Origin: Stappia indica
GTDB lineage: Bacteria; Pseudomonadota; Alphaproteobacteria; Rhizobiales; Stappiaceae
DNA: 64,000 nucleotides
Assembly (NCBI RefSeq): GCF_020177335.1
Contig: NZ_JAIVMG010000001.1
Coordinates: forward strand, 434,001 to 498,000
Direction of reading: 5' to 3'
Position 1 is the stretch's first letter. The number at the start of each line of letters is the position of its first letter. This document shows, piece by piece, positions 28,055 through 46,616 of this stretch. A program made the position numbers and the translations under genes. The notes below the pieces were generated by a model. The model was not told the origin of the DNA, made no database searches, and was given only the letters and a program-made list of their open reading frames with translations.

Positions 28055-28056
28055 CG

Positions 28057-28093
28057 CCAAAAAACGGCGCGCACCCGGAAAGGGCGCGCGCCG
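28057..28093 (-). terminator. Rho-independent terminator of the RidA/TRAP operon
   Basis: Stem CGGCGCGC (28065-28072) with GCGCGCCG (28086-28093). On the minus strand it is followed immediately by six T (28064-28059). It lies between the convergent purU and RidA stops. Confidence 0.8.
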
Positions 28094-28163
28094 GAGTTCG
28101 TTTCCGAGGCGAGAGCACCCGCCAAAACGTGCCGGGGACGACCCCGCCCCCGGCCATCGTTGA

Positions 28164-28523: not shown

Positions 28524-28660
28524 GTCAAAATCCCTGAATGGAGGAAGGGGCCGCACATGCGGCAGGAAACGGCGGTCCCGACCAGGGAGGCTGGCTGGGA
28601 CCGTCCGGGTGAAGGGAGAAAGCGTTGAGCAGGTACGGCGCCGGGAGCGACCGGAAGAAG

Positions 28661-29092: not shown

Positions 29093-29094
29093 GA

Positions 29095-30993: not shown

Positions 30994-31007
30994 GGGCCAC
31001 ACGGGCG

Positions 31008-32042: not shown

Positions 32043-32155
32043 GGTTCCTCCCTGAAGGCAACGGATCGCGCAAGCGACGCTGCGTCGTTTTAACCGATGC
32101 TCTACGGGTGCCGCGTGGCCGCCTTTCCATCAAGCTTAAATTTCTGATGCGAATT

Positions 32156-33037
32156 TCAGTTTTCCTGAAGCTTCAACCTGAGATCGCGCAACTCTTCCAG
32201 GAACGCCAGAACCGCCGGGCTGGGAACCGCACGGGCCGCGCGCAGGATCCCGACCCTCCGTCGTACGTTTTCGTCGGCCAGTGGCAGGAACCGCAGATCC
32301 GACACCCCCTGCATGGTCAGCTCCGGCAGGAGGGTCACGCCGACCCCGGCGCGGACCAGCGAGAACAGTGAGGTGTTGTTGCGCACCATCATGCGGGACC
32401 CGTCGAGGATCGGTTTGAATTCCGCCCCGGTGATCTGGAAGCAGGTGCCGTTGGCGAGGAAGTCGAGCCCTTGCAGATCGCTCCAGTCGACAGGCGTTCC
32501 CCGCCTGGCCAACGGATGATCCGGCGGACAGACCAGCCCGAATGGGTCCGACAGAAATGGCTCGCCGAGCAGTTCCCCGCTGTCGTTGGCAAAGCTCGCA
32601 AGTCCGATATCGACCCGGCCGCGGGTCAACTCGCGGGTTACCGCAAGCGAATCCATGTCCCGCAAGTCGATGAAGACCCCCGGCCGTGCGCGGGCAAAGG
32701 TCTTGATTACCTCCGGCAGGATACTCGCCGCGACCGAGGGCACCGCAGCGATCCGCACCGATCCGGATTCGGAACGGGCATAGCTCAGCATTTCATCGAC
32801 CGTGCCATCGAACTGGTTCACGGTCTGCAGCGCTTGCTCGAAGATATGCTGGCCAAGGCCGGTCAGCTTGCTCTTGCGCTCGGTCTCGAACAGAGGCGCG
32901 CCGAGGTGCTCCTCGAACTGCTTGAGCATCATCGACACCGCCGAGGGGGTGCGGCCAAGATGGTCCGCAGCCTCCGACAGATTGCCCCGCTGCGCCACCG
33001 CCGCGAAACAGCGCAACATCTCCAGCTTGATTGCCAT
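32156..33037 (-). CDS. LysR family transcriptional regulator
   Basis: Regulator of 293 aa. The N-terminal winged HTH begins IKLEMLRCFAAVAQRGNLSEAA, with LGRTPSAVSMMLKQFEEHLG as the recognition region. The periplasmic-binding-like effector domain runs from about residue 90 to the end (SGSVRIAAVPSVAASILPEV, VGVTLLPELTM). The start at 33037 gives the canonical N-terminus; an upstream ATG (28 codons into the longer frame) is possible. It is divergent from the M19-like gene and upstream of the TAXI-TRAP unit, so it probably regulates one or both. Confidence 0.92.
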   Translation of the reverse strand: MAIKLEMLRCFAAVAQRGNLSEAADHLGRTPSAVSMMLKQFEEHLGAPLFETERKSKLTGLGQHIFEQALQTVNQFDGTVDEMLSYARSESGSVRIAAVPSVAASILPEVIKTFARARPGVFIDLRDMDSLAVTRELTRGRVDIGLASFANDSGELLGEPFLSDPFGLVCPPDHPLARRGTPVDWSDLQGLDFLANGTCFQITGAEFKPILDGSRMMVRNNTSLFSLVRAGVGVTLLPELTMQGVSDLRFLPLADENVRRRVGILRAARAVPSPAVLAFLEELRDLRLKLQEN

Positions 33038-33165
33038 TTCAGGTTTTCTCAAATTCGTTTCAGATATTTGATTTTGACTGAAATCCATCTCCGGGTCGAG
33101 AGTGCGCCAACAGTCGCACCGCCGTTTCGGGCGGCGCTTTCTTTTCAAGGAGCTCGACCCCGCCC

Positions 33166-34185
33166 ATGGCAAGCCCGGCCTTTCGCATCGACAATCTTCA
33201 GTACGCCAACTGGTCGCGTAAGATCTTTGAACAGATGCGCGCCGGCGGGCTCGACGCTGTGCATGTGACCATCGCCTATCACGAGACCTTCCGCGAAACC
33301 GTCGCCAACATGGAGAAGTGGAACCGCTGGTTCGAGCAGCACGGCGATCTGATCATGCCCGGACGCTGGGCCAGCGACGTGCGCCGGGCGCGCGAAACCG
33401 GCCGCACGGCGATCTTCTTCGGCTTCCAGAACCCCTCGCCCATCGAAGACGATATCGGCCTCGTCGAGGTGCTTCATGACCTCGGCGCGCGGTTCATGCA
33501 GCTCAGCTACAACAACCAGTCGCTGCTCGCCACCGGGTGCTACGAGCGGGAAGACCCCGGCATCACCCGCATGGGCAAGGAAGTGATCCGCGAGATGAAC
33601 CGGGTCGGGCTCGTCATCGACATGAGCCATTCGGCGGACCGGTCCACCTTCGAGGCGATGGAGATTTCCACCCGGCCGATTGCCATCACCCACGCCAATC
33701 CGAAGGCCTGGGCCCCTGCCCTGCGCAACAAGAGCGACGACATCCTGCGGGCGCTGGCGCAGTCCGGCGGCATGCTCGGCTTCTCGCTCTATCCGCATCA
33801 CCTGAAGGACGGTCCCAACTGCACGCTGGCCAGCTTCTGCGAAATGGCCGCGCGCACGGCGGAAATCATGGGGCCGGCCGCCATCGGCATCGGCTCGGAC
33901 CTGTGTCAGGACCAGCCGGACAGCGTGGTGGAATGGATGCGTGTCGGCCGCTGGTCGAAGTCGATCGACTATGGCGAGGGCTCGGCGGACAATCCCGGCT
34001 TCCCGCCGATGCCGGAGTGGTACCGGGACAACCGGGATTTCGGCATCTTGCGCGACGGGTTGCTGGCGGCCGGTTTCTCCGCCTCCGAGGCCGACGGCAT
34101 TCTCGGCGAGAACTGGCTGCGCTTCTACGAGACCAACTTCGTTCCGGCAAAGGCTCTTGCCGGCGATCTGGCGAAAGCTGTCTGA
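33166..34185 (+). CDS. M19 membrane-dipeptidase-like protein lacking the HxD motif
   Basis: Protein of 339 aa with the fold of peptidase M19 (renal dipeptidase). It retains the Glu of the bridging position (PIED, Glu94), the DMSHS block (His155), ITHAN (His176), RNKSDD and GIGSDLCQD. However, the N-terminal metal-binding HxD of the family (DGHNDLP) is replaced by a His-free IDNLQYANW, and the usual LTH is LSY (Tyr115). It may therefore bind fewer metals or have a different reaction. It faces the LysR gene and is the only plus-strand gene between purU and the AraC gene. Its substrate is unknown. Confidence 0.8.
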   Translation: MASPAFRIDNLQYANWSRKIFEQMRAGGLDAVHVTIAYHETFRETVANMEKWNRWFEQHGDLIMPGRWASDVRRARETGRTAIFFGFQNPSPIEDDIGLVEVLHDLGARFMQLSYNNQSLLATGCYEREDPGITRMGKEVIREMNRVGLVIDMSHSADRSTFEAMEISTRPIAITHANPKAWAPALRNKSDDILRALAQSGGMLGFSLYPHHLKDGPNCTLASFCEMAARTAEIMGPAAIGIGSDLCQDQPDSVVEWMRVGRWSKSIDYGEGSADNPGFPPMPEWYRDNRDFGILRDGLLAAGFSASEADGILGENWLRFYETNFVPAKALAGDLAKAV

Positions 34186-34219
34186 GCGCCTTCCCCCTCC
34201 AGGGCTGCTCCAGCATGAA

Positions 34220-34263
34220 ACCGGCCGGGTCCTTGAACGGATCCGGCCGGCTTCCTGTTTTTC
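34220..34263 (+). terminator. Terminator between the M19-like gene and the BMC operon
   Basis: Long stem beginning CCGGCCGGGTCC (34221-34232) that pairs with GGATCCGGCCGG (34239-34250, one bulge), followed by CTTCCTGTTTTT on the plus strand. It is best as the M19-like gene terminator and can also stop the convergent BMC operon. Confidence 0.7.
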
Positions 34264-34290
34264 ACTGTCGATTTTCCGTGCGCAGCGTCC

Positions 34291-34920
34291 TCAGCCCGCC
34301 CGGCCCTTCACCTGTTCCAGTGTCCGGGTGATGGCATCGCGCGCCTTTTCCATCTCCGCCCGCGAGCCCGACATGAAGATGCGGCCGGTGGCGCCCATCA
34401 TCTGCACATCGTTGATCGTGGCTTCGGGCGCGGCCCGTTCCGCCTCGTTGGCGGCGACGCAGGCAAACAGCGCCGGCGCCATTTCGTAGATCAGCAAGGA
34501 CACGCCCGGCACCAGGATCGACGCATCGCGCGACCGGTTGAGGATGATCGCGTGCTGGTCCGACAGGTCGTCGATGATGTCCTGAAACAGGATCTTCGGC
34601 ACCATCTGATCGCTGGCCTTGGCGCCGATCCCCTTGAGGATCGCCTGTCCGGCCTTCTGCAATTCCTCCGGATCGTCGGAATGCAGCTCCAGCAATCCGA
34701 ACTGTCGCTCGGTGAAGAGAATGCCGGGCTCCATGTCCGGCGATTCCTTCAAGGCCAGATCGGCGATCCGGTGAATGGCAAGCGCGGGGGCCACCTCGAT
34801 GATCAGGCTGTTCTGACCCTCAAACGGCGGATAGCCCCGCGCCCGCAGCGGCGTTGCAAGATAGGCCGCAAACTGTGGCTGCAGATCCTGGATCGGCAGA
34901 TAGACCCTGAGTTCTGTCAT
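34291..34920 (-). CDS. BMC-T tandem-domain shell protein, CsoS1D-like (distal copy)
   Basis: Microcompartment shell protein of 209 aa with two BMC domains that would form pseudohexameric trimers. Domain 1 spans about residues 5-105 and domain 2 about 108-205. The permuted N-terminus (LRVYLPIQDLQPQFAAYLAT) and the segment LFTERQFGLLELHS match the CsoS1D/CcmP type, in which adjacent Glu and Arg gate a large central pore; here they are Glu71-Arg72. It is the last gene of the BMC operon, 28 bases after the hexamer protein gene. It probably gives a gated, possibly double-stacked pore for cofactors or larger metabolites. Confidence 0.88.
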   Translation of the reverse strand: MTELRVYLPIQDLQPQFAAYLATPLRARGYPPFEGQNSLIIEVAPALAIHRIADLALKESPDMEPGILFTERQFGLLELHSDDPEELQKAGQAILKGIGAKASDQMVPKILFQDIIDDLSDQHAIILNRSRDASILVPGVSLLIYEMAPALFACVAANEAERAAPEATINDVQMMGATGRIFMSGSRAEMEKARDAITRTLEQVKGRAG

Positions 34921-34947
34921 GGTTCCGGCCCTCTCCTGATCGATGCC

Positions 34948-35232
34948 TTACTTGACGTTCGCGGCTTCGAAATGCTTGCCGAGATCGGGATGCGGACGCG
35001 GGATCACATGCACCGACACCACTTCGCCGATCTGGTTGGCGGCTTCCGCGCCGGCCTCGGTCGCGGCCTTGACCGCACCGACATCGCCCTTGACGACCAC
35101 CGAGACGAGGCCGCCGCCGACCTCGTTGCGGGCGACGATCTCCACATTGGCCGCCTTGACCATCGCGTCGGCGGCGGTCAGCGCCGGCACATAGCCACGG
35201 GTCTCGATCATTCCAATTGCCTGACTAGCCAT
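34948..35232 (-). CDS. BMC-H hexameric shell protein (PduA/EutM-like)
   Basis: Major facet protein, 94 aa with a single BMC domain. It begins [20 protein letters not shown], then [11 protein letters not shown], the pore loop NEVGGG (residues 36-41), [18 protein letters not shown] and [11 protein letters not shown]. The sequence follows PduA closely except for the pore loop, where KIGSG-type residues are replaced by VGGG, which suggests a small neutral pore. It is the only hexamer protein of the locus, so facets would be built from this one protein plus the tandem proteins. Confidence 0.95.
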
Positions 35233-35280
35233 GATGCTTCTCCTCTTTCAGGTCTTGTCCAGAACGGGCGGGGCCGCCCG

Positions 35281-35517
35281 TCAGTTCTCGTCGATCGAGC
35301 CGATGATCAGCGCATCGACCGGAGCCTTGATCTTGGTGAAATATCCAGCGGCAACAGAGCCCTGGGTGATCAGCACATCCTCACCCTCGGCGCAGCCGAG
35401 CGGATCGAAGGCAACGATGGTGGTGCCGGCGACATCGACCTCCAGCAGCGAGCCGACCGGCAGGGTTTCGATGCGTTTGGTGGCCCAGACCCGGCCTGTC
35501 ACTTTTCCACGGATCAT
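35281..35517 (-). CDS. BMC-P pentameric vertex protein (EutN/CcmL family)
   Basis: Vertex-capping protein of 78 aa. It begins MIRGKVTGRVWATKR, then VGSLLEVDVAGTTIVAFDPLGCAEGEDVLITQGSVA in broken pieces of the EutN/CcmL fold, and ends PVDALIIGSIDE. Its ATG overlaps the stop of the upstream unknown gene (ATGA), giving coupling. A closed icosahedral-like shell needs such pentamers at its vertices, so the presence of this gene supports a complete compartment. Confidence 0.95.
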   Translation of the reverse strand: MIRGKVTGRVWATKRIETLPVGSLLEVDVAGTTIVAFDPLGCAEGEDVLITQGSVAAGYFTKIKAPVDALIIGSIDEN

Positions 35518-35963
35518 GACGCTGTCCTTTCAAGTCGGATGCCCCGACGCCGCAGCTCGTCGCGGGCCAGAGGGGTGAGCCGCACGGATTTGTCCGCAAG
35601 CACCGATGTCGTCCCGTCCGGCAGGCCGGCGATGTCCCGTTCCGAGATCATCCCCCGGTCGAACCGCACCTGGCGGGGCGCTGCCTGTGGCGGCGGGGCC
35701 GCCGGCTGATGCGCCTCGATCCGCACCGGAGCCGCATCGTCGGCGAGACGGAACCGGTGGCGTCCGGCGAGAATGTCGGCCCGACGGGCGCCATCCTGGG
35801 CCATCTCCAGCACCCGGAGGGCGAAGGCGTTGAGATCGGCGCTGGAACGGATCGCCACCGCTTCCTGCGTCACCTGCGGCGCGGCGGCGGGCGCCAGATC
35901 CGCCCGCACCCGGCCCAGTTCCTCGCGCAACAACTCGCGAATAACCTGGCGAAGGTCGTCCAC
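35514..35963 (-). CDS. BMC-associated unknown protein with N-terminal encapsulation-like helix
   Basis: Protein of 149 aa with no enzyme fold that I recognise. The first 20 residues form a strong amphipathic helix (DDLRQVIRELLREELGRVR), the type used to attach cargo to BMC shells. Then follow an Ala/Pro-rich linker, a short helical middle part (LNAFALRVLEMAQDGARRAD, about 44-63), a second Pro-rich linker (about 84-97), and a C-terminal unit ending LTPLARDELRRRGIRLE, a motif seen in EutT/PduO-type BMC-associated proteins. The GTG start at 35963 shares a base with the TAG of the upstream shell gene. It may be a scaffold or assembly factor. Confidence 0.75.
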   Translation of the reverse strand: MDDLRQVIRELLREELGRVRADLAPAAAPQVTQEAVAIRSSADLNAFALRVLEMAQDGARRADILAGRHRFRLADDAAPVRIEAHQPAAPPPQAAPRQVRFDRGMISERDIAGLPDGTTSVLADKSVRLTPLARDELRRRGIRLERTAS

Positions 35964-36574
35964 TAGACCGCTCCCGCCGACCGCAGCGCGGCTTCCGCGG
36001 CGTTGCGCGCATTGCGCACCTCCGCCTCGTCGCCGGCGAGATAAAGCCGCCCGTTCGGGCCGATCATCCGGTAGTCGATCAGCTTGATGTTCGCTTCCTT
36101 CTCCGCCTCGTTGCAGGCCAGCATGGCGTAGGACGCCGACTGGCATTCCAGGAGGTAGAGGCTGTCGCCGCCGAGGATCATCGAGCCCATGCGGTTGCGG
36201 TTCATCAAGAAGGCGTGCTGGTGGTCCACACGCGTGACGATCTTCGAGGCAAGGATCTTCGGCGGGGCCGCATCCTCGCGCCGCGCCCCAAGGGCATGGA
36301 GCACCGCGTCGGCGCCGGCCTGCACCTCGGCGGTGGAGCGGGAGTGGAACTCCAGCGTGCCGAACTGGCGCTCGACCACCAGAAGGCCGGCCTTCACGTC
36401 GGCGCTCTTCAGCGCCACGTCGGTCAGGGCCTCGATATCAAGCCCAGGGGCGATCTCGATGATCTGCGCGGCCATGCGTGAGCGTGGCAGGCTGCCGCGC
36501 ATCCAGGTCGCCACATAGGCCAGCGTCTGCGGCTGCAACTGGTCGATGAAGATGAAGGAGCGAAGGTCTGCCAT
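35963..36574 (-). CDS. BMC-T tandem-domain shell protein, CsoS1D-like (proximal copy)
   Basis: Second tandem-BMC shell protein, 203 aa. It starts DLRSFIFIDQLQPQTLAYVA and continues MAAQIIEIAPGLDIEAL and VVERQFGTLEFHS, a close match to my recollection of the carboxysome protein CsoS1D. The gating pair is Glu68-Arg69. The second domain includes HAFLMNRNRMGSMILGG and LACNEAEKEANIKLIDY. It lies 4 bases after the aldehyde dehydrogenase stop. Its paralogue at the operon end differs in pore-lining residues, so the two may gate different molecules. Confidence 0.9.
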   Translation of the reverse strand: MADLRSFIFIDQLQPQTLAYVATWMRGSLPRSRMAAQIIEIAPGLDIEALTDVALKSADVKAGLLVVERQFGTLEFHSRSTAEVQAGADAVLHALGARREDAAPPKILASKIVTRVDHQHAFLMNRNRMGSMILGGDSLYLLECQSASYAMLACNEAEKEANIKLIDYRMIGPNGRLYLAGDEAEVRNARNAAEAALRSAGAV

Positions 36575-36578
36575 GGGG

Positions 36579-38162
36579 TTATTTCCTCAGGAGATCGCGG
36601 AGCTCGGCCGCAATCAGGCGGCGCAGCTCGTCCTTGGTTGCAGCGTCCAGCGAGGACGCGGCAGACGGTGCAGGTGTCGGCGCCGCGAAACGCGGCGGCG
36701 CAGTGCCCGGCACACCATCGGCGGGCGCGGTGGGAAGCTGCCCCCGGAAGGCGCGGCCTACCCCCTGGAAGTTGCCGAAGGGCACCTTCCGGTCGGCGTT
36801 GTAGGCAATGCGGGTCCAGTGAACGAGGTGCTGGGGGCCGACGTTCTCGCCGATGGACGAGCGGCCAAAGAAACCGGTGCCGATGGTGAAGGTGGGCGCC
36901 AGATTGGTGGCGAACCCCGCCGCCCCTTGCGAGCAGGGCGCATTCACCACCACGCGGTAGGCCTCCACCAGCGCGGCATAGTCCATGATCACCGCCTCAT
37001 CGCGGGCATGGATTGCCGCCGAGTGCCCGGCTCCGGTCAACCGCAGGACCGCGCGGGCCTGGGAGAGGGCCTGCGTTCGGGTCTTTGCAACATGAAGAGC
37101 CAGAACCGGGCACAGCTTTTCCTTGGACAGCCGCTCTTCCACGCCGATCTGCGTGATGGGCGTCACCAGGATCCGGGTGTTGGCGGGAACGCGAATGTTG
37201 CATTCCTGGGCAATCCAGGTGGCGTCCCGGCCAATGGCTTCCACGTTGAAGCCGCGCGGATGGAACAGGAACCGGCGCAAGGCCGCCGTCTCCTCGTCCG
37301 TGCACAGGTAGGCGCCGGCGGATTTCAGCGCCATCCGCAACTGGTTCTCGACCTCCGGAACCGTGATCAGCACGCTTTCATTGGTGCACAGGATCGAGTT
37401 GTCGAAGGATTTTGAGGCAACGATGGCCTGGGCGGCCGCACCGATATCCGCCGTGGCATCGACGAACACCGGGGCATTGCCCGGCCCCACGCCAATCGCC
37501 GGATTGGAGGAGGAATAGGCCGCGCGCACCATCGGCGTGCCGCCGGTTGCCAGGATCACGTTGGTCTTCGGCGAGGTCATGAAAGCCTCGACCAGCGGAA
37601 TTGACGGCGTCTCCAGGATCTGGATGGCACCGCTCGGCGCACCGGCGGCCTCCGCCGCCCGGGCCAGCGCCGTTGCCGCCTCGATCGAGACCGCGCGCGC
37701 CGCCGGATGGGGCGAGATGACGATGGCATTACGAGTCATCATCGCCAGCAGGATCTTGTAGTTGAGGGTCGCCACCGGATTGGTCGAGGGGGTCAGCGCG
37801 AAGATCACCCCGGCTGGCCGGGGAATCTCGACGATCTTCCGCGCGTCATCAATACGGGAGTTGACGAAGTCCTGATCGCGGTAATGCTCCACCAGCGGGC
37901 GGGCGGTCAGCTCGTTCTTCAGCTTCTTGTGCTCGGCGACGCCAAAGCCGGTTTCCTCCACCGCCTTCGTTGCCATCTCCCCGGCCATCGCATGAGCCGC
38001 CTCGGCGACCGCATCGACAATGGCCATGGTCGCGGCCCGGTCGTAGCGGTCGAATACGGTGGCGGCCCAGCGGGCACGATCCAGCATCAGATCCGCCTTG
38101 CCGGCGCGCGCGGCGGGGCTGTCCGAAATATCGACAAGCGAGTTGTAAAGCGCCTGATCCAT
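36579..38162 (-). CDS. CoA-acylating aldehyde dehydrogenase, BMC signature enzyme
   Basis: PduP/EutE-type aldehyde dehydrogenase of 527 aa: aldehyde plus CoA plus NAD gives acyl-CoA plus NADH. The catalytic Cys259 is in FDNSILCTNES. Cofactor segments are FALTPSTNPVATLNYK and ATGGTPMVRAAYSS. The catalytic domain ends near residue 475 and is followed by an Ala/Pro-rich linker and a terminal amphipathic helix (KDELRRLIAAELRDLLRK), a typical C-terminal encapsulation peptide. Its start overlaps the stop of the class III PLP gene by one base. It is predicted to consume the aldehyde produced inside the shell. Confidence 0.92.
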   Translation of the reverse strand: MDQALYNSLVDISDSPAARAGKADLMLDRARWAATVFDRYDRAATMAIVDAVAEAAHAMAGEMATKAVEETGFGVAEHKKLKNELTARPLVEHYRDQDFVNSRIDDARKIVEIPRPAGVIFALTPSTNPVATLNYKILLAMMTRNAIVISPHPAARAVSIEAATALARAAEAAGAPSGAIQILETPSIPLVEAFMTSPKTNVILATGGTPMVRAAYSSSNPAIGVGPGNAPVFVDATADIGAAAQAIVASKSFDNSILCTNESVLITVPEVENQLRMALKSAGAYLCTDEETAALRRFLFHPRGFNVEAIGRDATWIAQECNIRVPANTRILVTPITQIGVEERLSKEKLCPVLALHVAKTRTQALSQARAVLRLTGAGHSAAIHARDEAVIMDYAALVEAYRVVVNAPCSQGAAGFATNLAPTFTIGTGFFGRSSIGENVGPQHLVHWTRIAYNADRKVPFGNFQGVGRAFRGQLPTAPADGVPGTAPPRFAAPTPAPSAASSLDAATKDELRRLIAAELRDLLRK

Positions 38163-39433
38163 CAGTACGTCCTCCGGCGGCTGCCCATGACCTCATCCCG
38201 CGCCAGCTCGACGGCGATGGCGACGCGCCGGAGCACATCCTCGGCATCGGCCTGGCTGAGCAGAAGGCCCGGCTTGAACTGCAGCACCCGCGGATCGAGC
38301 GTGGAAAAGATCGCCCAGACCCCGTTTTCATAAAGGTGCTTCATCACCGGCTTGGCGCCCTGTTCGTGATTGAACTCCAGCCCCATGATCACGCCATGCT
38401 GGCGGATGCCGATGAAGAAGTCGGGGAACTGGACCATGATGTCGTCGAGACCTGCGCGCAGGTAATCGCCGATGTACTGCACCATGGTGCGCACCTCCGG
38501 GCGCTGGATGATCTCCAGCGTCTTCATGGCGACGATGCAGCCAAGCTCGGCGCCGCCCATGGTGGAGATGTGGCCGAATCCATCCTCCGACAGCCAGCCG
38601 CCGCAACGCTCGGAAATCAGCACACAGGCAATGGGGTACATGCCGCCGGAAATGCCCTTGCCGGTGACCATGATGTCCGGCTCGACGCCGTATTTGGTGC
38701 AGCCCCACATCTCACCGGTGCGCATGAGGCCGGTCTGCACCTCGTCGGCGATGTAGAAGGCGTCGTATTTCTCGCAGAGCTTCTTCACCGCCGGCAGATA
38801 GCCGACCTCGGGCATGGGAAAGCCATAGGTCGCCGGGATCGTTTCCATGATCACGGCGGCGACATCCCGGCCGCGCAGGGCGTCCTCCATCGCGTTGAGA
38901 TCGTTGAAGGGAACCTGAACGAACTCGCCTTGCGCATCCTCGGAGAGGAACAGCTTGGAAAAGCGGTCGTCGCCGGTTTTCACCGCCAAGCCGGTGTGGC
39001 CGTGGTAGGCCTTGACGATCGAGACGATCTTCTTCTTCTGCGCGGCGTGGCGGGCGGTCTTCAAGGCGATGTCGATGGCTTCGCCGCCACCGGACCCGTA
39101 GGCGGTGTATTTGAAGTTGGGACCGGGGGCGACCGCCTGCAGCGCCTCGGCCAGCGCGGTGCGGGCCAGCGCCGGGAAATGGTGGTTGCCCATGTCGAAG
39201 CGCTCGGTGCCGGCCTTCAACACTTCCACCAGCTCCGGATGGCGATGTCCGAGGTTGTAGGTTCCGCCATTGAGGTGCAGGTCGATCAGGCGGCGACCGT
39301 CCATATCGTAAAGGTGATAGCCTTCACGCCGGTCGATCACCAGATCGACACCCATGTCGATCCAGTCCTGCGTCTTCCCTGGATTCCAGAAGGTTTTCGA
39401 CCGCTCCAGAAACTCTGTCTTCGCCTGGGACAT
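38162..39433 (-). CDS. Class III PLP enzyme, probable amino-alcohol-phosphate phospho-lyase
   Basis: Fold-type I PLP enzyme of the class III aminotransferase family, 423 aa. It has GSGGGEAIDIALKTAR (cofactor phosphate site), DEVQTG at 230-235 (Asp on the PLP nitrogen) and the Schiff-base Lys259 in VTGKGISGG. It is paired with an APH-fold kinase, as in human ETNPPL/PHYKPL with HYKK and in the mycobacterial AAUM locus. It therefore probably eliminates phosphate and ammonia from a phospho-amino alcohol to release an aldehyde, rather than transaminating. The start at 39433 has AAGGAAG upstream. Confidence 0.85.
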   Translation of the reverse strand: MSQAKTEFLERSKTFWNPGKTQDWIDMGVDLVIDRREGYHLYDMDGRRLIDLHLNGGTYNLGHRHPELVEVLKAGTERFDMGNHHFPALARTALAEALQAVAPGPNFKYTAYGSGGGEAIDIALKTARHAAQKKKIVSIVKAYHGHTGLAVKTGDDRFSKLFLSEDAQGEFVQVPFNDLNAMEDALRGRDVAAVIMETIPATYGFPMPEVGYLPAVKKLCEKYDAFYIADEVQTGLMRTGEMWGCTKYGVEPDIMVTGKGISGGMYPIACVLISERCGGWLSEDGFGHISTMGGAELGCIVAMKTLEIIQRPEVRTMVQYIGDYLRAGLDDIMVQFPDFFIGIRQHGVIMGLEFNHEQGAKPVMKHLYENGVWAIFSTLDPRVLQFKPGLLLSQADAEDVLRRVAIAVELARDEVMGSRRRTY

Positions 39434-39461
39434 CGGGCTTCCTTTCAACAGTTACCGCTAC

Positions 39462-40523
39462 TTAGAGCGATTTCCGCAGGACTGACTTGACAGGTCCGCA
39501 GTTTGAATTGACAGGCTGGCCTTCCCCCATGCGGCGCAGGTAGTCCGCGCCCAGATCCGCCGTCACACGCGCAAATCCGGGTGCCAACGCCTGCGGCTCG
39601 GGCGCCTCGATATGGCTGCCGATCCAGGCCAGCAACGCCATCCGGCGGAGCATGATGAAGGTGTCGATCTCCCGCTCTTCCGCTGCACCGAGTGGTCGGT
39701 TCCGGCGGTAGCCGCGCACCCAGGCGGCCTTCAGATCCGGCACGGCAGGATGGTCTTCCATGAAGCTGATGGCGGAGGCGAAATCGTAGAGGAACCAGCC
39801 CATGCCGCAGTCGTCGAAGTCGATCAGGCGCGGCCCCTCGGGACTGAGCAGAAGGTTGGCAAGGCGCATGTCCGCGTGGATCAGGCCGAACCTGTCCGGC
39901 CCCTTGCCGAAGGCGGCCAGCCGCTGGCGAACCAGCGCCTCGACCTCCTCCAGCACTTCGCGGACCTGACCATCCACCTCCGGGCCATCGCGCCAGTCGC
40001 CCCAGGTCGGGTTCCGCCCGAAGACCGCCTCCTCCTCCCACACCAGCCGTTCGAAGTTGCCCGGACGCTGCCAACTGGCGGAATGGGTGTGGGTGCGGGC
40101 GGCAATCTCGCCGAGCTTCTCGAAATGGCCGACCAGATCCTGGCTTTCGTCCGGCTGCGCACCCTCGACGAAATGGAACATCACCATGTAGCGCGGCGCC
40201 GGCAGGCCCGGCACGCTGCCTTGCTGAATGCGCTTGCCGTTGCGCCCGACATAGACGCCGGGGGTGGTGATGCCGGCCTCGGCATTCAGCGCATCGGACC
40301 AGGCCAGCTCGCATTCGATCGCCCGTTCGGAGTGATAGTTCTCCCGGTGCACCCGCAGGACGGAGCGAAAGTCCCCGGCTTCGACCAGATAGGTCGCGTT
40401 CTCCGAGACGTTGATCAGGCGGGCCGTTGCCCCGTCCGGAATGTCCCAGAGGGTGAGTGAGCGATTGGCAAGCGTCTCCAATCGCTCGAGGAGCTCCTCG
40501 AGCGGCATATCGCATTTAGACAT
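39462..40523 (-). CDS. APH-fold small-molecule kinase (probable amino alcohol kinase)
   Basis: Phosphotransferase of 353 aa with the aminoglycoside-phosphotransferase fold. Catalytic-loop residues are His216, Asp218 and Asn223 in HADMRLAN, with the metal-binding Asp235 in LIDFDD. The N-lobe is consistent (ENATYLVEAG, RSVLRVHR). The neighbourhood points to phosphorylation of a small amino alcohol (1-amino-2-propanol in AAUM loci; ethanolamine or hydroxylysine-like compounds are alternatives), not antibiotic resistance. The N-terminal MPLEELLERLETLANRSL is an amphipathic helix that could help encapsulation but may be part of the fold. AGGA precedes the ATG. Confidence 0.85.
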   Translation of the reverse strand: MSKCDMPLEELLERLETLANRSLTLWDIPDGATARLINVSENATYLVEAGDFRSVLRVHRENYHSERAIECELAWSDALNAEAGITTPGVYVGRNGKRIQQGSVPGLPAPRYMVMFHFVEGAQPDESQDLVGHFEKLGEIAARTHTHSASWQRPGNFERLVWEEEAVFGRNPTWGDWRDGPEVDGQVREVLEEVEALVRQRLAAFGKGPDRFGLIHADMRLANLLLSPEGPRLIDFDDCGMGWFLYDFASAISFMEDHPAVPDLKAAWVRGYRRNRPLGAAEEREIDTFIMLRRMALLAWIGSHIEAPEPQALAPGFARVTADLGADYLRRMGEGQPVNSNCGPVKSVLRKSL

Positions 40524-40649
40524 GCTGTTTCCTAACGTTGGGCGTCCGGGCCGCCCCGCCGCCTGGCTAGGCGCGAGGGCCCCGACTGCTGGAATTCGAT
40601 CGGGCTTTCCGGTCGCGGCGCCCTATCCGGGCACCGCGCGAAGGCCGAT

Positions 40650-41420
40650 CTAGATCTCCGCAATCGCCTCAAGCGATTCGGGGAGGATCTGCCCGCCATC
40701 GACCACGATCTGCTGACCGGTGATGTAGCCGGCCTCATCGGAGGCGAAGAACAGGGCCGCGTTGCCGATATCCTCCACCGCGCCGAGGCGTTTCAGCGGG
40801 ATCGAGGCGGCCATGGTGTCGAGATAGTCCTGGCCTAGGTCCTGAAGGCCCTCGGTGTAGATGTTGCCGGGCATGACCGCGTTGATGGTGGCGTTGTAGC
40901 GCGCCAGTTCCATCGCGGCGGTCTTCAGGAAGCCCAGTTGCCCGGCCTTCGAGGCACCATAGTGGGACCAGCCGGGAAAGCCCGTCACTGGTCCGGTGAT
41001 CGAGGAGGTCAGCACCACCCTGCCCTTGCCCGCCTTCTCGAAATGAGGAATGCAGGCCTTCACCGACAGGAACGAAGAACGCAAATTGGTCGCCATCACC
41101 CGGTCCCATTCGGCCGGGTCCATGTCGACCATCTTGGTCTGGGGAAAGACGCCCGCATTGGCGCACAGGATGTCGATCCCGCCCTGCGCCCGGGCCGTGC
41201 TGTCGACCATGGCGCGCATGCTGTCCCAGTCGGCGACATCGCAGACCTCATAGCGCACCTCCCCGCCGATCTCGGCGGCAGCAGATTTCAGCGCCTCCTC
41301 GCCGCGTGCCGCCAGGGTCACCTTCGCGCCCTGCCGGGCGAAGACCGTCGCGATGCCCCGGCCGATCCCCTTCGACCCGCCAGTGACAATGACGCTTTTT
41401 CCCTTGATGGATGTAAGCAT
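40650..41420 (-). CDS. SDR dehydrogenase of the BMC operon (probable amino ketone/alcohol)
   Basis: Short-chain dehydrogenase, 256 aa. It has TGGSKGIG at 13-20, NAG at 88-90, and catalytic Ser140, Tyr154 and Lys158 (YGASK), with TGQQIVVDGG near the end and a short C-terminal tail LPESLEAIAEI. In AAUM-type loci an SDR interconverts aminoacetone and 1-amino-2-propanol, supplying the substrate for the kinase; the same role is inferred here. It lies between the ABC importer and the kinase, with a 126-base gap to the kinase gene. Confidence 0.85.
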   Translation of the reverse strand: MLTSIKGKSVIVTGGSKGIGRGIATVFARQGAKVTLAARGEEALKSAAAEIGGEVRYEVCDVADWDSMRAMVDSTARAQGGIDILCANAGVFPQTKMVDMDPAEWDRVMATNLRSSFLSVKACIPHFEKAGKGRVVLTSSITGPVTGFPGWSHYGASKAGQLGFLKTAAMELARYNATINAVMPGNIYTEGLQDLGQDYLDTMAASIPLKRLGAVEDIGNAALFFASDEAGYITGQQIVVDGGQILPESLEAIAEI

Positions 41421-41468
41421 GGTTCCTCCCCAGTTGCTTCAAGTTCGTGTGTTCTTGTCCCGCCGCTC

Positions 41469-42275
41469 CTATCCGGCCCGCGCCTCCCGCACGGACCGGA
41501 CCAGCCAGCCGATGGACATGGCCAGAAGGATCAGGGCAAAGGAGCCGACGACCGACATCACTCCCAGTGTCGGCACAAGCGGCGAATAGCCGGAGACCAT
41601 CTTCGCGTAGAGCCACTCCGGCAGGGTCGAATCCGCGCCGGTGGTGAACAGCGACAGCGGGAAGTTGCCCCAGCTGAGCAGAAAGGCGAACAGGCCGGCG
41701 GAGACGAGACCCGGCATCAGCAGCGGCAGGGTCACCTCGCGCAGGATCGTCACCGTCGATGCCCCCATGTCGCGCGCCGCCTCCTCCAGCGCCGGGTCGA
41801 AACTATAGGCGCGAATGGCAACGATCAGGGTGGCGATCGGTGCGATCCAGACGAGATGGGCGACGACAGCGGTCTTCCAGGAGGGGATCACCCCGACCGA
41901 GTTGAACCACATCAAGAGCGCCAGCCCGAGCACGGTCTGCGGAAAGAAGATCGGCAGCAGGATCAGCTTCTGAAACAGGCTGCGAAATCGCCACTGGTAG
42001 CGGGCAAAGGCCAGCGCGCCGAAAAAGGCCACCACCATCGACACCAGCGTGACGATCACCGCCACCTTCAGCGAGGTGAAGAGCAGATCGCTCACCGTAT
42101 CGCTGCGCAGCGCCTCGGCGTACCATTTGGTCGAGTAGTGCCGGATCGGGAAGCTCAGGTAGCGCGCCTTGGAAATCGAGGCGAAGCCGACCGACACCAG
42201 CGGCAGGTAGAGAAAGCCGATGATCAGCACGCCATAGACATAGAGCGCGATCCGGGTTGTCTGGCTCGTGTTCAT
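41469..42275 (-). CDS. ABC transporter permease (PotC-like)
   Basis: Second inner-membrane permease of a polyamine/opine-type importer, 268 aa with six predicted TM helices. The EAA loop is EEAARDMGASTVTILREVTLPLLMPG, shown here in part, with the Gly-Ala that docks to the ATPase. It starts in overlap with the upstream permease stop. It is part of the four-gene importer that heads the BMC operon. Confidence 0.92.
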   Translation of the reverse strand: MNTSQTTRIALYVYGVLIIGFLYLPLVSVGFASISKARYLSFPIRHYSTKWYAEALRSDTVSDLLFTSLKVAVIVTLVSMVVAFFGALAFARYQWRFRSLFQKLILLPIFFPQTVLGLALLMWFNSVGVIPSWKTAVVAHLVWIAPIATLIVAIRAYSFDPALEEAARDMGASTVTILREVTLPLLMPGLVSAGLFAFLLSWGNFPLSLFTTGADSTLPEWLYAKMVSGYSPLVPTLGVMSVVGSFALILLAMSIGWLVRSVREARAG

Positions 42276-43132
42276 CAGCGTTTCCTCCCCATGATCGCGT
42301 CGAGATCGATCCGGCTGACACCGAACAGCGCAAGCCCGCCGATGATGACGATCAGCACCATGGAAAGCGCCGCGCCGAGCGGCCAGTTCTGGCCGAAGGT
42401 GAAGGCGGTTTCGATGTCATCGGCGATGACGATCACCGCCTGACCGCCGAGGATCTTGGATTCCGCCAGCGCCCCAGCCGCCAGCACGAAGGTCAGGAGG
42501 GAGCCGACCATGATGCCGGGCGCGGCCAGTGGCAGCTCGACCTGGCAGAGGATCTGCCAGCGCGAAGCGCCGAGATCGGCCGCCGCCTGACGTGTGTCGT
42601 CCGGAACCATGGAAATGCCCTGGGCCAGCGGAAACAGCATGAACGGCAGATAGACGTAGACCAGCCCGAAGATGATGATGCCGGTGTTGTAGAGCGGGCT
42701 GTCAAAGCCGATGCCGGTCAGAGAGCGGAAGTAGCCCTCGAACAACCCGCCCTTCATCAGGGTCAGCACCCATCCGAACAGGCGGATGTTTTCCGACACG
42801 AACAGGCTCATCACCACGGCAACGGTGAGGACCAGGGTAAACCGGCCAAACACCTTGGCCATGCCGAAGGCCAGCGGCCAGCAGACCAGGAACAGCGCCA
42901 GGGTGGCAATGAGCGCCATGGCAAGCGACCACAGCAGCGATTTGTAGTAGCCGCGCTCGAAGAAGACGCCATAGGCGGAAAAGTCCGGCATATGCGCCAG
43001 GGTGAACACCTTCGCCGGCATCACGGAAAAGACGGCGACCACCACAAGCGGCGCCAGGAAGCTGAGCACGAGGATCAGCCCCAGGGGCATCGCCGACAGA
43101 AGACCCAGTTTGCGGTCGTGACGCTCCATCAC
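42275..43132 (-). CDS. ABC transporter permease (PotB-like)
   Basis: First permease of the importer, 285 aa. The N-terminal helix is LLSAMPLGLILVLSFLAPLV and the EAA loop is TRQAAADLGASRWQILCQVE. Its ATG overlaps the ATPase stop (ATGA), and its own stop overlaps the next permease, which indicates strict co-expression. It forms a heterodimer with the PotC-like protein. Confidence 0.92.
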   Translation of the reverse strand: MMERHDRKLGLLSAMPLGLILVLSFLAPLVVVAVFSVMPAKVFTLAHMPDFSAYGVFFERGYYKSLLWSLAMALIATLALFLVCWPLAFGMAKVFGRFTLVLTVAVVMSLFVSENIRLFGWVLTLMKGGLFEGYFRSLTGIGFDSPLYNTGIIIFGLVYVYLPFMLFPLAQGISMVPDDTRQAAADLGASRWQILCQVELPLAAPGIMVGSLLTFVLAAGALAESKILGGQAVIVIADDIETAFTFGQNWPLGAALSMVLIVIIGGLALFGVSRIDLDAIMGRKR

Positions 43133-44214
43133 TGCCCCCGGATCAGGTGAACATGATCGCCATCGAACCCCAGCACCACCTCGGCGCCCGGCTGACGGTC
43201 GACCCGGTCCTCGCGCAGCTTCTCCACGGTGATCACCTGCCCGCCTGGCGTCTCCACCTCGTATTGAATGCGCGAGCCAAGGGCGTATTCGCCGTGCAAA
43301 ATGCCGCGCAGGGTGAAGTCGGCGGTGTCGGAACTGGCGAGGAAGCGCACGTATTCCGGCCGCACCATCAAAGTGCCACTGGCACCGGGCGCCATCGCCA
43401 CCCCGCAGGTCTCGGCATGGCCGTTCATATGACTTTCCAGCCCCGCACCGGCAAGCCCTCCGCCGGCGGTGCCGGTGACATCGAACAGGTTGACCTCGCC
43501 CATGAACTCGGCGACGAACCGGTTGACCGGCCGGCCGTAGATCTCGTCGGCCACGGCGATCTGCTCGAAATGCCCCTTGTTCATGATGGCGATCCGATCG
43601 GACATCACCATCGCCTCTTCCAGCGAATGGGTGATGTAGACGAAGGTCTTGCCGGTGCGGGTGTGCAGATCCTTCAGCTCTTTTTCCAGCGTCTTGCGAA
43701 GCCGGTAATCGAGCGCGGAAAGCGGTTCGTCGAAGAACAGGATCTCCGGATCGAAGGCGAGCGCGCGGGCCAGCGCCACCCGCTGCCGTTCACCACCGGA
43801 ACATTGCGAAATCCGCTTGCTGTAGTAGCTCTGGGGCAGACGCAGAAGATCCAGGAGCTCCAGCGCCCGGGCCCGGCGTTCCTCGGCCGGGACCTTGCGC
43901 AGTTTCAACGGAAATTCCACGTTCTGCCCCACGCTCATGTGCGGAAACAGCGCAAGCGACTGGAACACCATGCAGGTGGGACGCTGATTGGCGGGGGTCT
44001 GGTCGATGCGCCGGTCACGCAGCCAGATTTCCCCGTCCGTCACCTCGTCCATGCCGACCAGAAGCCGGATCAACGTCGATTTCCCACTGCCCGAGGGACC
44101 GACGATGGTGAAGAACTCACCTTCTTCGATATCGAGGTTCACACCAGGCAGTGCGGTGAAGCTCCCGAAGGTCTTGACGACATTCCGAAGCCGCAAGATG
44201 GGTTGCGATGTCAT
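43129..44214 (-). CDS. ABC transporter ATP-binding protein (PotA-like)
   Basis: Energising subunit, 361 aa. It has Walker A GPSGSGKST, signature CSGGERQRVALARAL (the usual LSGGQ appears as CSGGE), Walker B EILFFDEPLSALD, the H-loop ITHSLEEAM, and a C-terminal TOBE domain from about residue 270. This is the CUT1/PotA architecture of spermidine/putrescine-type importers. It lies 26 bases after the binding-protein gene. Confidence 0.93.
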   Translation of the reverse strand: MTSQPILRLRNVVKTFGSFTALPGVNLDIEEGEFFTIVGPSGSGKSTLIRLLVGMDEVTDGEIWLRDRRIDQTPANQRPTCMVFQSLALFPHMSVGQNVEFPLKLRKVPAEERRARALELLDLLRLPQSYYSKRISQCSGGERQRVALARALAFDPEILFFDEPLSALDYRLRKTLEKELKDLHTRTGKTFVYITHSLEEAMVMSDRIAIMNKGHFEQIAVADEIYGRPVNRFVAEFMGEVNLFDVTGTAGGGLAGAGLESHMNGHAETCGVAMAPGASGTLMVRPEYVRFLASSDTADFTLRGILHGEYALGSRIQYEVETPGGQVITVEKLREDRVDRQPGAEVVLGFDGDHVHLIRGQ

Positions 44215-44240
44215 GAATGGCTTCCAGCGCTTGGCTTCGC

Positions 44241-45377
44241 TCAGGTGCGACGGGCTTCGGTGTAGATGTCGATCAGCGCGTCGTAGGATGTCACCACATC
44301 GTAGTCGAGCGACCGGGCCATCTCCTCCGCCAGGCTGTCCATCTGGATCGCGTTCAGCTCCTCGCTGTCGAACTGCGCCAGCACGTCCGGATTGCCCATC
44401 TGGCTGACCGGGTTGTAGGTGCCCTCGGTGAAGGCCACCGCCTTGGCGATCTCCGGCGTCTGCACGAACTCCAGGAAGTCCTCGGCCACGGAGCTGGGAT
44501 CGGGATTGTTCACCGCCGAGGTCAGCTCGACCCAGACGCAGCCGCCCTTGCCATCGACCGGACCGGAGTTCGGCGTGATTGCCCGCACATTGTCCGCCCC
44601 GTCATAGCGGGCCGGCGACGCGGTATAGGTACCGCCGGTGAAATAGGCATCGATCTCGCCATTGATCAGCGCGGTGTTCATAGCGACGAGATCGTCGGTG
44701 AGCAGCTTCGCCCCGCCGAAAATCCCCATTGCCGTGTCGCGGAACTTCGACAAGTTCTCACCCTCAATGGCGGCGAAGGGATTGAGCCCGGCGGTCAGGC
44801 ACATGTGAATGACGTTCCAGTTGTCGTAGGTCAGAACGCCGTAGCGGCCTTTCATCGCCGGATCGAGGAACAGGTTCCAGCCCTGGTCCTCCGCCGTCTC
44901 GCGGCTGATCTTGTCGGTGTTGACGACGAAACTGAACGGGCCGTAGCGCTGCGGCATGCCCAGGAGATTGCCATCGTCGGCGAAGGCCAGCGGATAGGGC
45001 GCGGCGAACTCCGGCAGCATCTTGTCGAAATACGGCAGGAACCGCTCCTTGCTGAGCGGCTTGATCAGCCCTTCGGGGTAAAGCTGATCGCGGGCCCAGG
45101 GCTGGTTGACGTTGATCAGGTCCCAGACGCTGGTCTCGCCAGCACGCAGCTTGTTGATCATGTCCGGGTCGGAGGTGCCGCTTTCGGCGCGCACGGTGAC
45201 CCCGGAGTTGGCGGCGCGGAACGGCCCGAGCACCCCATCGGAGTTGTACCCCTCCCAGCAGAGAATGTTCATCTGGTCATTGCGCGCGGCACGGGCCGGC
45301 GACATGCGGCCGGCAACCATCAGACCCGCTGCCGTGGCGGCGGTTCCAGCCAGAAATCGTCTGCGTGTAACAGTCAT
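44241..45377 (-). CDS. Extracellular substrate-binding protein (PotD-like)
   Basis: Periplasmic binding protein of 378 aa with a twin-arginine signal (RRRFLAGTAATAAGLMVAG). The mature fold begins MNILCWEGYNSDGVLGPF, the pattern of PotD/PotF-type polyamine and related binding proteins. It is the first gene of the BMC operon, so it presumably captures the amino compound metabolised in the compartment. An upstream TAAAAT is a possible -10. Confidence 0.92.
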   Translation of the reverse strand: MTVTRRRFLAGTAATAAGLMVAGRMSPARAARNDQMNILCWEGYNSDGVLGPFRAANSGVTVRAESGTSDPDMINKLRAGETSVWDLINVNQPWARDQLYPEGLIKPLSKERFLPYFDKMLPEFAAPYPLAFADDGNLLGMPQRYGPFSFVVNTDKISRETAEDQGWNLFLDPAMKGRYGVLTYDNWNVIHMCLTAGLNPFAAIEGENLSKFRDTAMGIFGGAKLLTDDLVAMNTALINGEIDAYFTGGTYTASPARYDGADNVRAITPNSGPVDGKGGCVWVELTSAVNNPDPSSVAEDFLEFVQTPEIAKAVAFTEGTYNPVSQMGNPDVLAQFDSEELNAIQMDSLAEEMARSLDYDVVTSYDALIDIYTEARRT

Positions 45378-45421
45378 TGGATTCCCCTCCGGTCAGGCTC
45401 TGGTTAGGCATTTCGTTCCTT

Positions 45422-45427
45422 ATTTTA
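45422..45427 (-). promoter_or_regulatory. Possible -10 element of the BMC operon promoter
   Basis: Minus-strand TAAAAT, five of six matches to the -10 consensus, 45 bases upstream of the binding-protein start. There is no recognisable -35 at 17 bases, which would suit a promoter needing an activator such as the divergent AraC protein. Inference from pattern. Confidence 0.3.
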
Positions 45428-45584
45428 TCCTTCCAGCCTAATACCGGTTTCCTCCGCATGACTTGACAAGCGACAGTTCAAATTTAACACTACTTTCCAA
45501 CCTGACCCGTCAACGAGGTCGGTTTCCAGAGGGATGGCTACGAGGCATAAAGCCCGTGCCGGCAAACCATGAATCGAAAAATCC

Positions 45585-46616
45585 GTGCAACAGCCAGTAA
45601 ATTCGTGCGAATTCACGGCGCCGTCTAAAGTTCTGTCGGCAGCGGCAAATGGAGCGAAACAATTGTTTCGCGCGTGTGGGGGAGACATCGACCGGATCCT
45701 TGGCCAGACCGGGATCCGACACGAGGACTTCGAAAACCCGGTTTCCGAAGTAAATCTCTCTCAGTATTGCCACATGTTCGAGGTTGCGGCGCAGCAAACC
45801 GGGAACCACAACATCGGGTTGCATTTCGGCAAGAATTTCCAGCCAAAACAACTTGGGATGCTCGGTTATGCGGCGATCAGCTCGCCGACACTGGCCGCAG
45901 GCCTGCGCCATATGGAGACCTACTTCCCCGCCCATCAGGGGCAGACCACCTTCGGGCTCTTGCCGGACGATGGCGTTCTGTGGCTGAGCTACCAGATCGT
46001 CGATCCCAGGGTGGTCAACCGGCGTCAGGATGCGGAACTGTCGCTGGGCATGTTCTGCAACGTGTTCCGCGCCGCACTCGGTGAAGACTGGGCTCCGCTG
46101 GAAGTGCGCTTCGAACACGCCGCACCCGATGACGGCAGGGAGCATGAGCGGCTGTTCAACGCACCGGTGCGGTTCGGACGCCGGACCAACGCGATCGCCT
46201 TCCGGCGCAAGGATCTCGACGCCAAGATGCCGGATCAGGATCCTTATCTGTTCTCGGTGGTGAAAGCCTTCCTGGAAAGCCGCAACGCTTCGGTGGAGGA
46301 CCCGACGGATTTCGCCACGCTGGTGCGCAATCAGGTCAAGCTCAACCTGGGCTCCCGCTTGCCGACCCTGCCGGAGATCGCCTCGGTACTGGGGCTGTCC
46401 TGCTCCAGCTTCCAGAAGCAGCTCAGGCGGCACGGCCTTGCCTTCCCGGACATCCTCAAGGCCGCCCGGCATGAGCTTGCGTTGCACTATATGGACGACC
46501 CGGACATGTCGCTGACGGAAATCGCCTACAACCTCGGCTACTCGGAGCAGTCGGCCTTCACCCGCGCCTTCCGCAACTGGACGGGCATGAGCCCGCAGCG
46601 CTACCGCCGGCTTTAG
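45585..46616 (+). CDS. AraC family transcriptional regulator of the BMC locus
   Basis: Regulator of 343 aa. It has an N-terminal arabinose_bd/AraC-E-type effector domain (residues about 20-210) and a C-terminal double HTH (LPTLPEIASVLGLSCSSFQ and MSLTEIAYNLGYSEQSAF, then FTRAFRNWTGMSPQRYRR). The GTG start at 45585 lacks a strong SD, and no other start is available for 60 codons. It is divergent from the BMC/ABC operon across 207 bases and likely activates it. Its stop overlaps the convergent lpxB stop by a few bases, marking a tight right edge of the accessory region. Confidence 0.92.
   Translation: MQQPVNSCEFTAPSKVLSAAANGAKQLFRACGGDIDRILGQTGIRHEDFENPVSEVNLSQYCHMFEVAAQQTGNHNIGLHFGKNFQPKQLGMLGYAAISSPTLAAGLRHMETYFPAHQGQTTFGLLPDDGVLWLSYQIVDPRVVNRRQDAELSLGMFCNVFRAALGEDWAPLEVRFEHAAPDDGREHERLFNAPVRFGRRTNAIAFRRKDLDAKMPDQDPYLFSVVKAFLESRNASVEDPTDFATLVRNQVKLNLGSRLPTLPEIASVLGLSCSSFQKQLRRHGLAFPDILKAARHELALHYMDDPDMSLTEIAYNLGYSEQSAFTRAFRNWTGMSPQRYRRL
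45654..45671. promoter_or_regulatory. Perfect 18-bp palindrome inside the 5' end of the AraC gene
   Basis: GCGAAACAATTGTTTCGC, a perfect 18-base inverted repeat, located about 70 bases into the AraC-family reading frame. It may be an autoregulatory operator or a chance feature; palindromes of this length are rare in GC-rich DNA. Confidence 0.4.

Follow-up and report, generated by a model that had tools for sequence, protein, structure and literature searches.

An RMM1-type microcompartment operon in Stappia indica and its class III PLP enzyme, a candidate phospho-lyase

Bacterial microcompartments (BMCs) of the RMM1 type, also named AAUM or Aut and represented by Mycolicibacterium smegmatis and Rhodococcus, combine four types of shell protein with a short-chain dehydrogenase/reductase (SDR), an APH-fold kinase, a class III pyridoxal phosphate (PLP) enzyme and a CoA-acylating aldehyde dehydrogenase (AldDH), while RMM2 is the RMM1 set plus a diol dehydratase. 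The central RMM step has reportedly been drawn by Mallette and Kimber as a phosphorylation followed by an elimination. The class III enzyme is drawn as an aminotransferase in Axen 2014 (PMC4207490) and Ravcheev 2019 (PMC6620236). Published RMM/Aut loci come from Actinobacteria, Firmicutes and Proteobacteria (PMC6620236), and an RMM2 locus has been described in the alphaproteobacterium Paracoccus yeei (PMC8156839). Here we report on an operon of Stappia indica, contained in a 64,000-nucleotide stretch of contig NZ_JAIVMG010000001.1 (the window), which a preliminary description made from the letters alone had read as an RMM/AAUM-like locus. We find that it is a member of this type, and sequence comparison favours a phospho-lyase over an aminotransferase as the function of its class III enzyme.

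The interval 34291-45377 is exactly one minus-strand series of 13 close-packed genes (adjacent genes lie -4 to +126 bases apart), a feature of Stappia as compared with actinobacterial RMM, and the genes named in the preliminary description are all present there as intact open reading frames (ORFs). In the order of the series, they are as follows, with identities to proteins of Agrobacterium fabrum C58:

44241..45377, minus strand: solute-binding protein (PotD/PotF-like) of a PotABCD-type ABC importer; SBP_bac_6, 55% to a "PotD/PotF family" protein
43129..44214, minus strand: ABC importer ATPase (PotA-like); 55% to an ABC ATPase of a shell-less cluster
42275..43132, minus strand: ABC importer permease (PotB-like); 50% to a permease, 4-base overlap with the ATPase gene
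41469..42275, minus strand: ABC importer permease (PotC-like); 60% to a permease
40650..41420, minus strand: SDR oxidoreductase, predicted aminoacetone/1-amino-2-propanol oxidoreductase; Pfam, PDB 6ci8/6ci9
39462..40523, minus strand: APH-fold kinase, predicted amino-alcohol kinase; PF01636, PDB 6ef6
38162..39433, minus strand: class III PLP enzyme, predicted amino-alcohol-phosphate phospho-lyase; PF00202, Gln390 at the position of the transaminase Arg, Lys392 at +2 (residues numbered from TTG 39448, where the ORF opens; ATG 39433 is taken as the start)
36579..38162, minus strand: CoA-acylating AldDH; PF00171, PDB 5j78
36582..36635, minus strand: putative encapsulation peptide at the AldDH C-terminus (KDELRRLIAAELRDLLRK); LRxLIxxEL-like motif
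35963..36574, minus strand: BMC-T shell protein T1 (MSM0275 type); PDB 5l39
35514..35963, minus strand: U, conserved protein with an encapsulation-peptide-like N-terminus, proposed lumen linker; homologues at the same place
35281..35517, minus strand: BMC-P vertex protein (MSM0273 type); PF03319, PDB 5l37
34948..35232, minus strand: BMC-H shell protein (MSM0272 type); PF00936, PDB 5l38
34291..34920, minus strand: BMC-T shell protein T2 (MSM0271 type); PDB 5suh

Both double-domain BMC-T genes are there, but they are not the tandem pair described earlier, being separated by U, BMC-P and BMC-H. The alphaproteobacterial host was correctly recognized, the nearest AldDH (98%) being that of Stappia taiwanensis.

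Membership of the operon in the RMM1/AAUM (Aut) type is firm, because the best solved relatives of its shell proteins are mycobacterial RMM proteins, its gene order is shared and its kinase and SDR match those expected. T1 had MSM0275 as its best PDB match (5l39, E 1e-79; next 7e-49), T2 had MSM0271 (5suh, E 6e-82; next 8e-40) and BMC-P had MSM0273 (5l37, E 3e-23; next 7e-4), while the best natural chain for BMC-H was MSM0272 (5l38, E 4e-37), an engineered tandem fusion scoring higher (1e-54). The operon thus encodes shell proteins of the MSM0271/0272/0273/0275 types, namely two BMC-T(dp) with a single BMC-H and a single BMC-P. In the domain-profile check that the preliminary description had proposed, Pfam recognized BMC-H (PF00936, E 6e-28), BMC-P (PF03319, EutN_CcmL, 4e-19) and T1 (2e-10), but T2 had no Pfam match at 1e-3 and matched only NCBIfam CcmP (E 5e-50), below the family cut-off. 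We found 46 loci in genome contigs, 19 of which (L001-L017, L040 and L041) are of the same type as the window; T1-U-P-H-T2 was present in all 14 complete ones, the other five running into the end of a contig or stretch, and the longer order AldDH-T1-U-P-H-T2 was that of these same 14 loci and of Rhodococcus jostii RHA1 plasmid pRHL2. Identities of the R. jostii proteins to those of the window were 48% for AldDH, 67% for T1, 26% for U, 47% for BMC-P, 77% for BMC-H, 63% for T2 and 38% for the kinase, with no SDR match in the 32.5-kb stretch; T1-U-P-H occurs there twice, with identical protein accessions (L057:14560-21490). The SDR and APH-fold kinase expected of RMM1/AAUM are present by sequence match, with activities that are predicted, and, as in that type, the operon has no phosphotransacylase gene. 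A search of the Stappia genome for EutB, the ethanolamine ammonia-lyase of EUT loci, gave no match while being positive in Escherichia coli, and no further BMC locus was found in it: PF00936 matched BMC-H and T1, PF03319 one protein, and a search with T1 only T1 and T2.

With regard to its chemistry, we consider it probable that the operon serves the conversion of aminoacetone and 1-amino-2-propanol, through an O-phosphate, to propionaldehyde and propionyl-CoA. The PotABCD-type importer would bring the amine in, the SDR would interconvert aminoacetone and (S)-1-amino-2-propanol, the kinase would make the O-phosphate and the class III PLP enzyme would eliminate phosphate and ammonia to give propionaldehyde. 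The C-terminal peptide of the AldDH would bring this enzyme into the shell, where it would turn the aldehyde into propionyl-CoA, and the SDR could re-oxidize the NADH that it makes. U, whose N-terminus has a similar peptide, would act as a lumen-side linker or scaffold, and the shell would retain the aldehyde while propionyl-CoA would exit via the large BMC-T pores to methylmalonyl-CoA mutase; the genome has genes of the methylmalonyl-CoA mutase family. Substrate, individual reactions, encapsulation and regulation are what we infer here, next to family membership, gene order, the loss of the transaminase arginine and the linkages in relatives, which are read from the sequences.

The SDR (Pfam E 2e-60) had PDB chains 6ci8 (5e-90) and 6ci9 (4e-89) as its best matches, followed by 3rih (6e-84), and the kinase (PF01636, APH, E 9e-26) matched 6ef6 at E 2e-86, the next best being 9e-11; we take 6ef6, 6ci8 and 6ci9 to be the aminopropanol kinase and dehydrogenase on which Mallette and Kimber worked in M. 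smegmatis. A kinase homologue lay in the examined stretch of 14 of the 19 loci of the type and, at genome level, in 19 of the 20 other genomes searched (those of the 19 loci plus that of L025; the miss was that of L010), and an SDR at 57% identity or more lay in the examined stretch of 12 of the 19. The AldDH (PF00171, E 5e-22) was closest to an acetylating acetaldehyde dehydrogenase (5j78, E 4e-90) and matched NCBIfam acetylating families beneath their cut-offs, a relationship that also fits a C2 substrate and to that extent counts against a C3 one. Ethanolamine, handled by the same kinase, lyase and AldDH logic through phosphoethanolamine and acetaldehyde to acetyl-CoA, would agree with this, with the ethanolamine permease gene in the R. 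jostii region and with the lack of EutB, which means that another route would be needed; it is nevertheless improbable, since it leaves without a role an SDR that is retained with the locus (at 57-98% identity in 13 of the loci and 58% in A. fabrum) and does not account for the diol dehydratase near related loci.

In class III transaminases such as ornithine and GABA aminotransferases, an arginine binds the acceptor carboxylate. This arginine of 2-oxo-acid class III transaminases was absent from the window-type enzymes: Gln occupied its position in 34/34 of those aligned and Lys stood two residues further on in 34/34 (25 of a first set, L001 and L016, and seven class-level loci, which are related sequences and not independent events). 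Phospho-lyase-type enzymes had Lys at the Arg position and Arg at +2, both in 3/3, whereas among six E. coli enzymes Arg was kept in five (PatA, AstC, GabT, ArgD and PuuE), BioA had Tyr, and none was basic at +2. A transaminase route, as proposed by Axen 2014 and Ravcheev 2019 (PMC4207490, PMC6620236), would have the class III enzyme (PF00202, E 1e-72) convert 1-amino-2-propanol to lactaldehyde, or aminoacetone to methylglyoxal; lactyl- or pyruvyl-CoA would then be the product of the AldDH, and the kinase would act late or elsewhere. Consistently with it, the best solved relatives of the enzyme are putrescine aminotransferases, and PMC6620236 states that the Proteobacterial Aut clusters seen there had no kinase gene, which also speaks against a phosphorylated intermediate. 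On the other hand, such a route is at odds with the loss of the arginine, gives no clear use to a kinase kept with the locus, and meets with a homologous shell-less cluster whose enzyme is of the phospho-lyase family and with diol dehydratase neighbours that would give propionaldehyde and not lactaldehyde, so that we regard it as unlikely, though less so than ethanolamine.

The shell-less cluster is that of A. fabrum C58 plasmid pAt (L060:2486-11161), in which the importer (50-60%), the SDR (58%) and the kinase (42%) are homologous to those of Stappia and stand with a class III PLP enzyme that in the PDB is best matched by the phospho-lyases 5g4i (E 1e-105) and 6tor (1e-95); unlike in Stappia, no shell or AldDH homologue was found in the stretch. 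A DeoR regulator gene lies just outside this cluster, at 1728-2489. Window-type PLP genes, too, were found in stretches with no shell gene, adjoining a kinase gene in Pseudomonas sp. MPC6 and a type I phosphodiesterase gene on Phyllobacterium and Mesorhizobium plasmids (Pfam check in Phyllobacterium). In L061:6706-9263 and L063:6706-9242, a window-type PLP gene stands next to an alkaline-phosphatase-family gene, which Pfam assigns in L061 to the type I phosphodiesterases, together with a DeoR regulator and an ABC importer of the dipeptide type. Shell genes are again absent, and both PLP enzymes fall inside the BMC-linked clade.

In a tree of the PLP enzymes, 33 window-type rows grouped in a single clade (100/99), separate from the pair of R. 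jostii and A. fabrum (100/100) as well as from PatA and AstC, with long branches throughout; the A. fabrum enzyme represents 5g4i and 6tor in this tree. The window enzyme therefore falls outside the ethanolamine-phosphate phospho-lyase clade, but may still work as a phospho-lyase, and its separate clade on a long branch would then be a second phospho-lyase lineage. The R. jostii enzyme, by comparison, is 46% identical to the phospho-lyase type of A. fabrum and 26% to that of the window, and has its own C-terminal peptide resembling that of the AldDH. We dropped the idea that the PLP enzyme was swapped in alphaproteobacteria: according to PMC6620236 the BMC-linked AutA of Actinobacteria, Firmicutes and Proteobacteria is one branch, and the Brevibacillus enzyme (L025) is 60% identical to the window's, which makes the R. 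jostii pRHL2 enzyme probably the exception. In its strongest form, to which we give even chances, the proposal is that the RMM/Aut enzyme founds a second, independent class III phospho-lyase lineage, in which a PatA-like ancestor would have lost the acceptor arginine and the charge would have moved two residues along the strand, as happened separately in the ethanolamine-phosphate phospho-lyases, and that RMM compartments of different lineages use either enzyme, the Rhodococcus one with an encapsulation tail.

Taken together, the loss of the arginine with a basic +2 residue, the A. fabrum cluster, the shell-less kinase and phosphodiesterase neighbours and the separate clade favour a phospho-lyase over an aminotransferase. 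The kinase and phospho-lyase chemistry suggested in the preliminary description is thereby favoured, on sequence grounds, by the arginine loss, the Agrobacterium cluster and the linkage to diol dehydratase. The last of these bears on the identity of the aldehyde. Of 21 genomes with the locus type, ten gave a match to diol dehydratase, and in nine of these ten a kinase homologue shares its contig at a distance of 42-8958 bases; for L002 and L013, Pfam confirmed both the small subunit and the large/medium fusion. Neither the window genome (no match in the search that found the ten) nor S. taiwanensis has one, which places the Stappia locus with RMM1 rather than RMM2. If a shell can be supplied by either 1,2-propanediol or an amino alcohol, propionaldehyde is the intermediate that the two routes would be expected to share. 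The different amino alcohol allowed for earlier keeps some possibility, but the diol dehydratase near related loci indicates the same C3 aldehyde.

Transporter and regulator vary among BMC loci, which lessens what can be read from the two differences that set Stappia apart. Its PotABCD-type ABC importer and AraC regulator stand against an amino-acid permease and GntR in actinobacterial RMM (PMC4207490, PMC6620236). These differences would suit another secondary amino alcohol or a polyamine-derived amine, taken up by the PotABCD-type importer and processed with the shell and core of RMM; given also that the SDR and kinase are close to solved chains, we hold this to be very improbable. The importer is named PotABCD-like because of its A. 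fabrum homologues at 50-60% identity, the solute-binding protein itself giving weak PDB matches to PotD-type chains (E 1e-6) and matching SBP_bac_6 at E 1.3e-5 (25.2 bits, cut-off 24.6); its structure model, built from 11 close sequences, had a mean pLDDT of 56. An importer gene at 50% identity or more was present in the examined stretches of 14 of the 19 loci of the type (L009 and four short pieces lacked it), and a homologue of the AraC regulator in those of eight. The importer and AraC regulator announced in the preliminary description were both found, the regulator lying outside the range then given:

45585..46616, plus strand: AraC-family regulator, divergent from the operon; PF12625 and PF12833
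34221..34250, no strand assigned: 12-pair GC-rich stem-loop, possible terminator, between the convergent ends of T2 and an M19 dipeptidase gene (pattern scan)

Stem-loops of this pattern numbered six in the region, not above shuffles (7.8). A promoter scan found none (1.8 expected), and an Rfam search nothing at gathering score.

U had no Pfam or NCBIfam match at 1e-3, and homologues of it occupy the same place in 14/14 complete loci and in R. jostii. Its AlphaFold model has two small alpha/beta parts (pLDDT 86, pTM 0.39), and a fold search of the PDB with it returned nothing at E<=0.001. The N-terminal stretch LRxLIRExLxEEL resembles the AldDH tail, whose LRxLIxxEL-like motif was present in 14/14 AldDHs with a C-terminus recovered by the ORF step; the N-terminal pattern of U fitted 23 of 28 rows, three of which are second copies of the same loci, both patterns having been written after seeing the sequences. 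This resemblance is the ground on which U may be proposed as a lumen-side linker or scaffold.

A number of findings weigh against the pathway as a whole. As to encapsulation, the hydrophobic moments of both window peptides (the AldDH tail and the U N-terminus) were not above shuffles, 701 and 945 of 5000 being as high, and the kinase, SDR and PLP enzyme of the window have no encapsulation-like tail by eye, so that they may be cytosolic. The PLP enzyme is 29% identical to E. coli PatA and 25-26% to phospho-lyases, and we know of no assayed member of the window-type enzymes; moreover, in L011:48-8920 a kinase fragment and a PLP gene of the phospho-lyase type precede a window-type PLP-AldDH pair by about 5.5 kb, and with both present in one locus the two kinds may not be interchangeable. 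Within the diol dehydratase count, that of genome G453 (L009) and the counted kinase are on a contig other than that of the shell genes, that of G461 is a 97-position fragment at a contig start, and the matches in G460 are on other contigs, with no kinase on the same contig. On the side of supply, the importer could carry a cargo other than the amine, and 2-amino-3-ketobutyrate CoA ligase, one source of aminoacetone, reached 278 of 493 bits, below the cut-off.

In the genus, the operon is apparently an acquired, patchy insertion. The T1 gene was present in 11 of 385 sampled alphaproteobacterial genomes, that of the window included, in 1/13 other genomes of the genus, 0/23 of other genera in the family and 3/24 of other families in the order. 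Relative to congeners, about 19.7 kb (26886..46612) is inserted between gltA (citrate synthase, 25593-26885) and lpxB (46613-47842), which lie 135-285 bases apart in 3/3 congeners examined, of 12 without T1. S. taiwanensis (L001) has the same content from lpxB via the operon to a formyltransferase gene, where the comparison ends before reaching the citrate synthase junction. The rest of the insertion (26886-34216) holds this formyltransferase, with an ACT domain, a TAXI-type TRAP transporter made of a DctM-type protein and an NMT1-like binding protein, and the M19 dipeptidase, which is probably not a member of the system, having among the 46 loci a 97% homologue in L001 and otherwise weak ones (24-28%) in L027 and L031.

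Compartments with related shells were also seen. The 26 loci L018-L046 other than L025, L040 and L041, from Chloroflexota and one Bacillota, appear by their gene content to be another compartment type with a related shell: 24 of them have an AldDH with BMC-H and a T1-like BMC-T (39-43%), and no kinase or PLP homologue in the examined stretch (with one weak SDR match, L045). In the alphaproteobacterial genome G357 (L118:6626-13116), RMM-like shell genes and an AldDH stand with a TauD-type Fe/2-oxoglutarate dioxygenase that replaces kinase, PLP enzyme and SDR, and the protein at the place of U has a SnoaL domain between U-like ends (a likeness seen by eye, with no BLAST match), making a dioxygenase-fed aldehyde compartment possible. 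T1 without the window-type PLP enzyme was found in G185 and G279 as well.

The novelty first claimed for the locus, as one of a type described mainly from Actinobacteria, is weaker than it was put, given the Proteobacterial and Firmicutes loci already in print and the 11 T1-bearing genomes among the 385. On RMM1 in Alphaproteobacteria, our literature search found only the 2014 paper, and the supplements of the 2021 catalog (PMC8217296), of which part was available, may list it; on Stappia microcompartments it found none. The locus is another RMM/Aut locus that differs in importer and regulator, and what is new is the comparative argument on the PLP enzyme.

RMM/AAUM is one of the less characterized metabolosomes, and comparison of the Stappia locus with its relatives speaks for phosphorylation and elimination, names the PLP enzyme residues to test and offers a marine alphaproteobacterium in which the whole gene set forms one close-packed series. 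What the shell contributes can be judged against the shell-less cluster of Agrobacterium, which serves as a natural control. If the PLP enzyme is a phospho-lyase outside the known clade, other "aminotransferases" annotated beside kinases would need another look.

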